A DNA stretch of 64,000 nucleotides from Natronospira sp. GTDB lineage: Bacteria; Pseudomonadota; Gammaproteobacteria; Natronospirales; Natronospiraceae. Made by a program: the position numbers and the translations under genes. This document shows, piece after piece, positions 61,461-62,576 of the stretch. Below the pieces are notes generated by a model. That model was not told the DNA's origin, searched no databases, and saw nothing but the letters and a program-made list of their open reading frames with translations. Location of the stretch: the NCBI GenBank assembly GCA_003558125.1, contig PWMQ01000016.1, forward strand, positions 1 through 64,000. The letters run 5' to 3'. Numbering within the stretch: position 1 is the stretch's first letter; every line of letters starts with the position of its first letter.

Positions 61461-62189
61461 ATGACTTACTGTCTAGCCATACGTACCGACAACGGCTTCC
61501 TGGTGGCCTCCGACTCGCGCACCAGTGCCGGGGTGGATGATGTCAGCGTCTACAGCAAGATGCATGAGCTGCCCACCAGTGACGATCGTTGCATGGTGCT
61601 GCTCTCGGCCGGCAACCTGGCCACCACCCAGGCGGTCACCAGCCGTATCCAGCGTGACCTCGATGACTCCGAGGCCGAGACCTCGATCAACCGCCTCGAT
61701 CATCTGGAAGACGTGGCCGAGTACATCGGTGCCATCAGCACGCGAGTACAGAAGGGCCCGGAAGGGGCCACTCAGGCGGACTTTCGGCCCAAGGCAACCT
61801 TCATCCTGGCCGGCCAGATCGGCCAGGAAAGCCATAATCTCTATCTGATCTACCCGGAAGGCAATTACATCCGGGTCAGTGAGGAAAAGCCCTTTCTGCA
61901 GGCCGGAGAGACCAAATACGGCAAGCCCATCCTGGATCGTATCGTGGAAAGCGGCATGAGTCTGGAAATGGCCGCCCGTTGCGCCCTGGTTTCCCTGGAT
62001 TCCAGTATGCGCTCCAATCTCAGCGTCGGGCCGCCGGTGGAACTGGCCTTCTATCAGGCCGACAGCCATCGCCTCGATCCCCGGCTGCGCTTTGAGGAAG
62101 ACGATCCCTTCTGGCGCCGCATGCAGGATGCCTGGTCCCGCAATCTCCGCCAGGCCTTCATGGATCTGCCGCGCTTCGATTGGGAGTAA
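61461..62189 (+). CDS. Anbu, bacterial proteasome-like peptidase
   Basis: 242 aa, an Ntn-hydrolase of the proteasome beta-subunit type. It starts MTYCLAIRTDNGFLVASDSRTSAGVDD (split): the threonine directly after Met1 is the nucleophile of the Anbu family, and there is no propeptide. VLLSAGNLATTQAV and the following helices match the Anbu core. Anbu forms open, lock-washer-like helical assemblies; its physiological substrate is unknown. The stop TAA at 62,187-62,189 runs directly into the A-run of the terminator for the small RNA on the other strand. Confidence 0.95.
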   Translation: MTYCLAIRTDNGFLVASDSRTSAGVDDVSVYSKMHELPTSDDRCMVLLSAGNLATTQAVTSRIQRDLDDSEAETSINRLDHLEDVAEYIGAISTRVQKGPEGATQADFRPKATFILAGQIGQESHNLYLIYPEGNYIRVSEEKPFLQAGETKYGKPILDRIVESGMSLEMAARCALVSLDSSMRSNLSVGPPVELAFYQADSHRLDPRLRFEEDDPFWRRMQDAWSRNLRQAFMDLPRFDWE

Positions 62190-62228
62190 AAAAAACGCCG
62201 CGAACAGCCTGAGTTCTGTTCGCGGCGT
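62188..62228 (-). terminator. Rho-independent terminator of the CsrB/RsmZ-like RNA
   Basis: Read on the minus strand, the stem ACGCCGCGAACAG (13 bp, perfect; 62,216-62,228 with 62,195-62,207) with an eight-base loop is followed by eight U (62,195-62,188). It is the strongest terminator in the window and has no minus-strand protein gene before it within 370 bases. It may also shield the convergent Anbu transcript. Confidence 0.95.
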
Positions 62229-62491
62229 CTCGACACCTTCCCTGGCGAGCCTTGGTTGTCGCTGGGCCTCCCTGCCAGACCCCGTCCCGGGGTTGCCCAT
62301 CCTGGGCGCCTGAGTTGCCCACTCTGGATCATCCCTGATCCGCCGGCCTGAACCGGCCCCAGCCCCTCCTGGACTGTCGCGCGGGCATGGCATTCATCAT
62401 GCCGGATGACCATCCTGGTCGGGGATCGTGCCAGTCCCTGGCCGACGCCCCCGGCATTGACTCCCCCCTTTCCGCCAATGCCCGCGCTGTG
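62196..62491 (-). ncRNA. CsrB/RsmZ-like regulatory RNA (CsrA/RsmA-binding)
   Basis: About 296 nt with no open frame. Hairpins that place GGA in the loop follow one another: GCCAG-GGA-CTGGC (62,442-62,430), GACCA-GGA-TGGTC (62,420-62,408), GGATCA-GGGA-TGATCC (62,341-62,326), GCCCA-GGA-TGGGC (62,307-62,295) and CCCCG-GGA-CGGGG (62,292-62,280), all perfect stems. A 5' stem GGCATTG/CAATGCC (62,482-62,453) encloses two more GGA, and three looser ones lie near 62,360, 62,270 and 62,240. CsrA/RsmA dimers bind exactly such loops, so the RNA should titrate the protein. A promoter, upstream box and terminator frame it. It is unlike RNase P, tmRNA or 6S RNA. Confidence 0.87.
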
Positions 62492-62497
62492 GGTATA

Positions 62498-62576
62498 ACG
62501 ATACGCAGGGCTCGGCTTTGGCGTAATCAGCAGATCGTGATGGGGCGTGTAGGGATATGCTGACGGCCCCTGTAAG
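62498..62576 (-). promoter_or_regulatory. Candidate promoter and GacA/UvrY-like box of the small RNA
   Basis: On the minus strand, TTACGC (62,526-62,521) and TATCGT (62,503-62,498) are 17 bases apart, giving a start near 62,491. Upstream lies CGTCAG-CATATC-CCTACA (62,565-62,548), which matches the TGTAAG-N6-CTTACA box of GacA-controlled rsm/csr RNA promoters at 9 of 12 positions, centred about 65 bases before the start. A second perfect half-site TGTAAG is at 62,571-62,576. The -35 is weak, as expected for an activated promoter. Confidence 0.6.

Follow-up and report, generated by a model that had tools for sequence, protein, structure and literature searches.

Most bacteria of the class Gammaproteobacteria carry a gene for an RNA that acts as a CsrA sponge, under different sequences. 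The question raised by the gap between yihY and anbu in the stretch of Natronospira sp. DNA analysed here (64,000 nucleotides in full, hereafter the window) is whether its minus strand holds such a gene, as the original prediction of a CsrB/RsmZ-type RNA proposed. An RNA of this kind is to be expected, because the organism is a gammaproteobacterium with csrA and barA/uvrY. The look-up of csrA proposed with the prediction was successful, the gene being found after alaS (C78:19673-19828, NCBIfam equivalog) in the genome of the window (G000). The same genome encodes a UvrY/SirA/GacA response regulator that scores above its equivalog cut-off and lies two genes upstream of uvrC, and a BarA/GacS-type hybrid kinase of 928 aa (sCache_4-HAMP-HisKA-HATPase-REC-Hpt), which among the NCBIfam models matches BarA best, though below the equivalog cut-off (567 vs 890 bits). 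The data presented below make it very probable that the yihY-anbu gap carries on its minus strand an independent gene of about 300 nt for a CsrA-antagonising sRNA, with predicted activation by BarA/UvrY.

Position and fold of the RNA gene

The CsrB/Rsm-type sRNA gene was placed at 62189..62491 on the minus strand, to which all the features described below also belong, on the basis of its GGA hairpin cluster, of orthologues in both congeners and of a whole-genome match to the CsrB model. The 5' end was set at about 62491 because of the position of the -10-like element, and the 3' end at about 62189 because of the terminator stem and the eight-T run, that is, about 7 nt past the boundary first proposed (62196). 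The gene is intergenic; in the window yihY lies on the same strand, with its stop codon about 115 nt before the sRNA, while anbu is found on the plus strand, convergent on the sRNA, and has its stop codon overlapped by the eight-T run. The intrinsic terminator (62188..62228) is composed of a 13-bp stem (arms 62228-62216 and 62207-62195), an 8-nt loop and eight T (62195-62188), in agreement with the stem followed by eight U initially described, with the precision that the first T of the run still belongs to the stem, as its final base. The absence of a reading frame was likewise upheld as regards conservation: mechanical ORFs cross the region in the ORF list of the window, and none is conserved, since the indels in the alignment of the orthologues are not multiples of three.

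The hairpins with GGA in the loop and the looser GGA sites that motivated the prediction were confirmed on the minus strand, although not by the bare number of GGA triplets, which is ordinary (11 in the 300 nt ending at the terminator vs 10.5 in shuffled sequences). Loops closed by at least 4 bp display GGA seven times, against a shuffle mean of 1.9, a number reached by none of 1000 shuffles, and one further GGA loop has a 3-bp stem, for a total of 7-8 GGA hairpins. In addition, CAGG(G)A occurs in seven copies where about 1.3 are expected. The unusual feature is therefore the display of CAGG(G)A in hairpin loops and not the number of GGA. When both strands of the 64-kb window were scanned for clusters of GGA hairpins the locus ranked top, and E. 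coli csrB scored alike in the same scan, with 9 hairpins and 11 motifs. The fold is also more stable than expected for its composition (z = -5.5), none of 100 shuffles being equally stable.

The predicted fold begins with a 5' domain (62379..62487) closed by a 10-bp stem, in which GCGCGGGCAU (62487-62478) pairs with AUGCCCGCGC (62388-62379), as GCGCGGGC does with GCCCGCGU in G002, one of the two other species of the genus with available orthologues (the second being G001). Two GGA hairpins are contained in this domain, namely hairpin 1 (gccag-GGA-ctggc, 62430..62442), with CAGGAA at the equivalent place in G001 and G002, and hairpin 2 (gacca-GGA-tggtc, 62408..62420), corresponding to gaacAGGGAGgttc in G002 and gccAGGAAggc in G001. 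These are followed by hairpin 3 (cagtcc-AGGAG-gggctg, 62360..62376; gatcAGGGAAggtc in G002 and gggtcgGGAtgaccc in G001), hairpin 4 (ggatca-GGGA-tgatcc, 62326..62341; gattcAGGAGgagtc in G001) and hairpin 5 (gccca-GGA-tgggc, 62295..62307), which is the best conserved of all, with GCCCAGGANGGG invariant in the three species. Hairpin 6 (accccg-GGA-cggggt, 62279..62293) reads ctcccGGGAGgggag in G002 and gcttcAGGGAAgaagt in G001. Of the two looser elements, hairpin 7 (ctgg-CAGGGAGGC-ccag, 62262..62278) has no GGA kept at its place in either G001 or G002, and site 8 (GCC-AGGGA-AGG, 62234..62247), just 5' of the terminator, has its CAGGGA invariant in all three species.

Orthologues and probable promoter elements in the genus

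Orthologues of the sRNA were identified in G002 by BLAST of the locus and in G001 in the sequence downstream of yihY. As seen in the alignment, the three sRNAs have in common a nearly invariant terminator, the invariant hairpin 5 and the final CAGGGA. The GGA loops are kept across the three species, as the prediction required of relatives, and most of the stem sequences differ yet still pair; for example, the hairpin at one equivalent place reads gacca-GGA-tggtc, gaac-AGGGAG-gttc and gcc-AGGAA-ggc. The observed hairpin count was reached by 0, 5 and 2 of 1000 shuffles in the three species, and that of CAGG(G)A by none of 1000 in each of them. RNAalifold gave no overall covariation bonus for the three-sequence alignment (+0.46 kcal/mol), partly because the alignment is gappy. 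Together with the presence of csrA, the conservation of the GGA hairpins in both congeners supports the reading as a CsrB/RsmZ-type RNA.

Upstream of the gene, GTATCGT (62498..62504), which contains the probable -10 element (TATCGT), is identical in the three orthologues, and CTGATT (62525-62530), located 20-21 nt further upstream, is also conserved; no consensus sigma-70 promoter was found at the locus. Farther upstream there is an element resembling a GacA/UvrY box (CGTCAG-CATATC-CCTACA, 62548..62565), which agrees at 9 of 12 positions with the published box TGTAAG-N6-CTTACA (PMC4950607, PMC3171408). The agreement is 9, 9 and 10 of 12 in the three species, in each of which 52-53 nt separate the centre of the box-like element from the -10-like one downstream, and the pattern YGTCRG-N6-CCTACA has a single match in the G000 genome, which is the element upstream of the sRNA. 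Taken alone the element is not significant, as six such matches (up to three mismatches) occur in the window against 6.1 expected, and any weight that it carries would come only from its recurrence at fixed spacing in the three species. Judging from the three sequences, promoter, RNA and terminator appear to travel as one unit.

Some peculiarities were observed around the gene in the relatives. In G002 the final 57 bp of the gene (terminator and preceding CAGGG) are present once more, with 95% identity, directly next to yihY; the two copies of the 3' end are found at L132:128-183 (G002:C2 ~212827-212882) and L005:~1509-1565, and the approximately 1.7 kb between them include a glycine-rich secreted-protein-like gene. 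The duplicate may reflect an insertion at the sRNA 3' end. The same genome presents an apparent long inverted repeat between anbu and the RNA gene (L005:2050-2410), possibly connected with the orientation of the sRNA described below. The 7-mer GTGCTGA is found in runs both downstream of anbu (L080:3137-3230) and at the contig end by the RNA gene (L085:1-40) in G001, which suggests an assembly break at this repeat between the two genes.

Relation to known Csr/Rsm RNAs and alternative explanations

At the gathering threshold no Rfam family matches the sRNA locus or its two orthologues; below it, a weak Csr/Rsm signal does exist. When whole genomes were searched with the CsrB model (RF00018), the only hit in G000 was this locus (11.2 bits vs a gathering cut-off of 71) and the only hit in G001 was the orthologue (14 bits), with no match in G002. 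As for the remaining Csr/Rsm-type matches on the sense strand, RsmY matched the window locus (E 0.52, 14.4 bits vs a cut-off of 57), where two clearly spurious families (a snoRNA and a miRNA) outscored it, PrrB/RsmZ was the best family for the G002 orthologue (E 0.00027, 26.6 bits vs 44) and RsmW the best for that of G001 (E 0.066, 23.5 bits vs 52). The RsmY, RsmZ and RsmW matches all belong to clan CL00106, to which two further GGA-rich stretches of the window gave no match. Whole-genome hits of RF00166 were uninformative, as unrelated control genomes were also matched and the hits that were fetched presented no comparable CAGG(G)A cluster. By score, the sRNA falls outside the current Rfam sequence families RF00018, RF00166, RF00195 and RF02809.

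CsrB (RF00018) of E. coli and other gammaproteobacteria has a similar length (369 nt annotated in E. coli vs about 300), repeated CAGG(G)A loops and an intrinsic terminator; E. coli CsrB is reported to contain 22 GGA (PMC11882849), against 11 here, and its gene neighbours are yqcC and syd instead of yihY and anbu. The CAGG(G)A repeat matches both the CsrB element CAGGA(U/A/C)G and the SELEX site RUACARGGAUGU (PMC7652899). The Pseudomonas RNAs PrrB/RsmZ (RF00166), RsmY (RF00195) and RsmW (RF02809) equally combine GGA hairpins with an intrinsic terminator, and a GacA-type box precedes rsmY and rsmZ, the counterpart here being an imperfect box-like element; the RsmZ, RsmY and RsmW models, however, cover 121-133 positions, less than half of the present sRNA. 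The Csr sRNAs Pf1, Pf2 and Pf3 of Pseudoalteromonas fuliginea (PMC11882849) answer to the same description (many GGA, promoter, intrinsic terminator, intergenic position) and have been studied experimentally. The sRNA described here is very probably an additional, previously unclassified member of the known functional class CsrB/CsrC/RsmX/Y/Z, and not a new kind of system.

A search of about 140 genomes with a model covering the 3' part of the RNA found no recognisable homologue outside the genus, and the three best weak matches (G098, G129 and G062) were rejected for their lack of GGA clusters. The pattern of the conserved 5' block gave outside the genus only scattered matches with 1-2 mismatches, comparable to those of a reversed control. 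Such absence is usual for these RNAs, because Csr sRNAs usually lack sequence conservation (PMC11882849). In G012 and G014, from another family of the order (f3), GGA-rich stretches downstream of yihY were discarded as they appear to be palindromic repeat elements of the CACAGGGATGTG type (L142:~2280-2520 and L143:~830-1090). With their repeat-like appearance and their resemblance to CsrA sites, elements of this type are a trap for searches that count GGA. In the literature, the pairing of csrB with yihY returned only an unrelated mention in PMC, and nothing relevant was found on the genus or on haloalkaliphiles.

RsmW is thought to come from the 3' UTR of PA4570, and a similar origin could be envisaged here, with a CsrA sponge being cut from the yihY mRNA. 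The description of the RNA as lying downstream of yihY is correct for the window, where it is on the yihY strand about 115 nt past the stop codon; in G001 and G002, however, it lies on the other strand and is directed towards yihY, and the conserved box and -10-like elements have moved with it. Because both relatives have RNA and promoter in the reverse orientation with respect to yihY, the sRNA is taken as an autonomous gene, and its derivation from the yihY 3' UTR is considered highly improbable. The chance is slimmer still that the locus is a repetitive palindromic element (REP or CACAGGGATGTG-type) mimicking CsrA sites fortuitously. Such repeats do form clusters of GGA hairpins downstream of yihY in G012 and G014, but the present locus occurs only once in its genome (a single match both by BLAST and with the 3'-part model), possesses its own terminator as well as conserved promoter elements, and is shared by three species as orthologues. 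No sibling copy of the sRNA was found in the genome, where a diverged sibling could escape detection.

A conserved structured RNA with incidental GGA loops and some other role, for instance that of a base-pairing sRNA, could also account for the conserved terminator and for the block GCCGGGGGCGTCGGCCAGG in the 5' part, which is the same in G000 and G002. Across most of the body, however, it is the GGA loop that is conserved and not the surrounding sequence, and the Rfam matches indicate the Csr/Rsm clan, which leaves this explanation very little probability. A different proposal is that the gene, besides encoding a CsrA sponge, constitutes a small mobile or invertible unit, whose terminator would serve as an insertion target and which would have been flipped with its promoter between species; this is deemed unlikely.

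Proposed place in the Csr circuit

As an independent gene for a CsrA-antagonising RNA, the locus can be fitted into a pathway modelled on that of its family. Phosphorylated UvrY/GacA, driven by the BarA/GacS-type kinase, would activate the gene by binding to the box upstream of it, and transcription would stop at the strong intrinsic terminator. The roughly 7-8 CAGG(G)A loops, exposed on short stems, would then bind CsrA dimers, titrating CsrA away from its target mRNAs and thereby releasing the CsrA-regulated mRNAs. The sRNA is likely to be the global regulator RNA of the organism, as initially suggested, and a link to motility and c-di-GMP is plausible by analogy with other species.

The sRNA would complete the BarA/UvrY-Csr circuit with its missing RNA component, in a genus where the Rfam models applied detected no such RNA above cut-off. 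The three orthologues provide the basis for a genus-level model, and the combined test of GGA hairpins, terminator, orthologue, GacA box at fixed spacing and presence of csrA/uvrY is illustrated here as a way to pick up Csr RNAs overlooked by family models.
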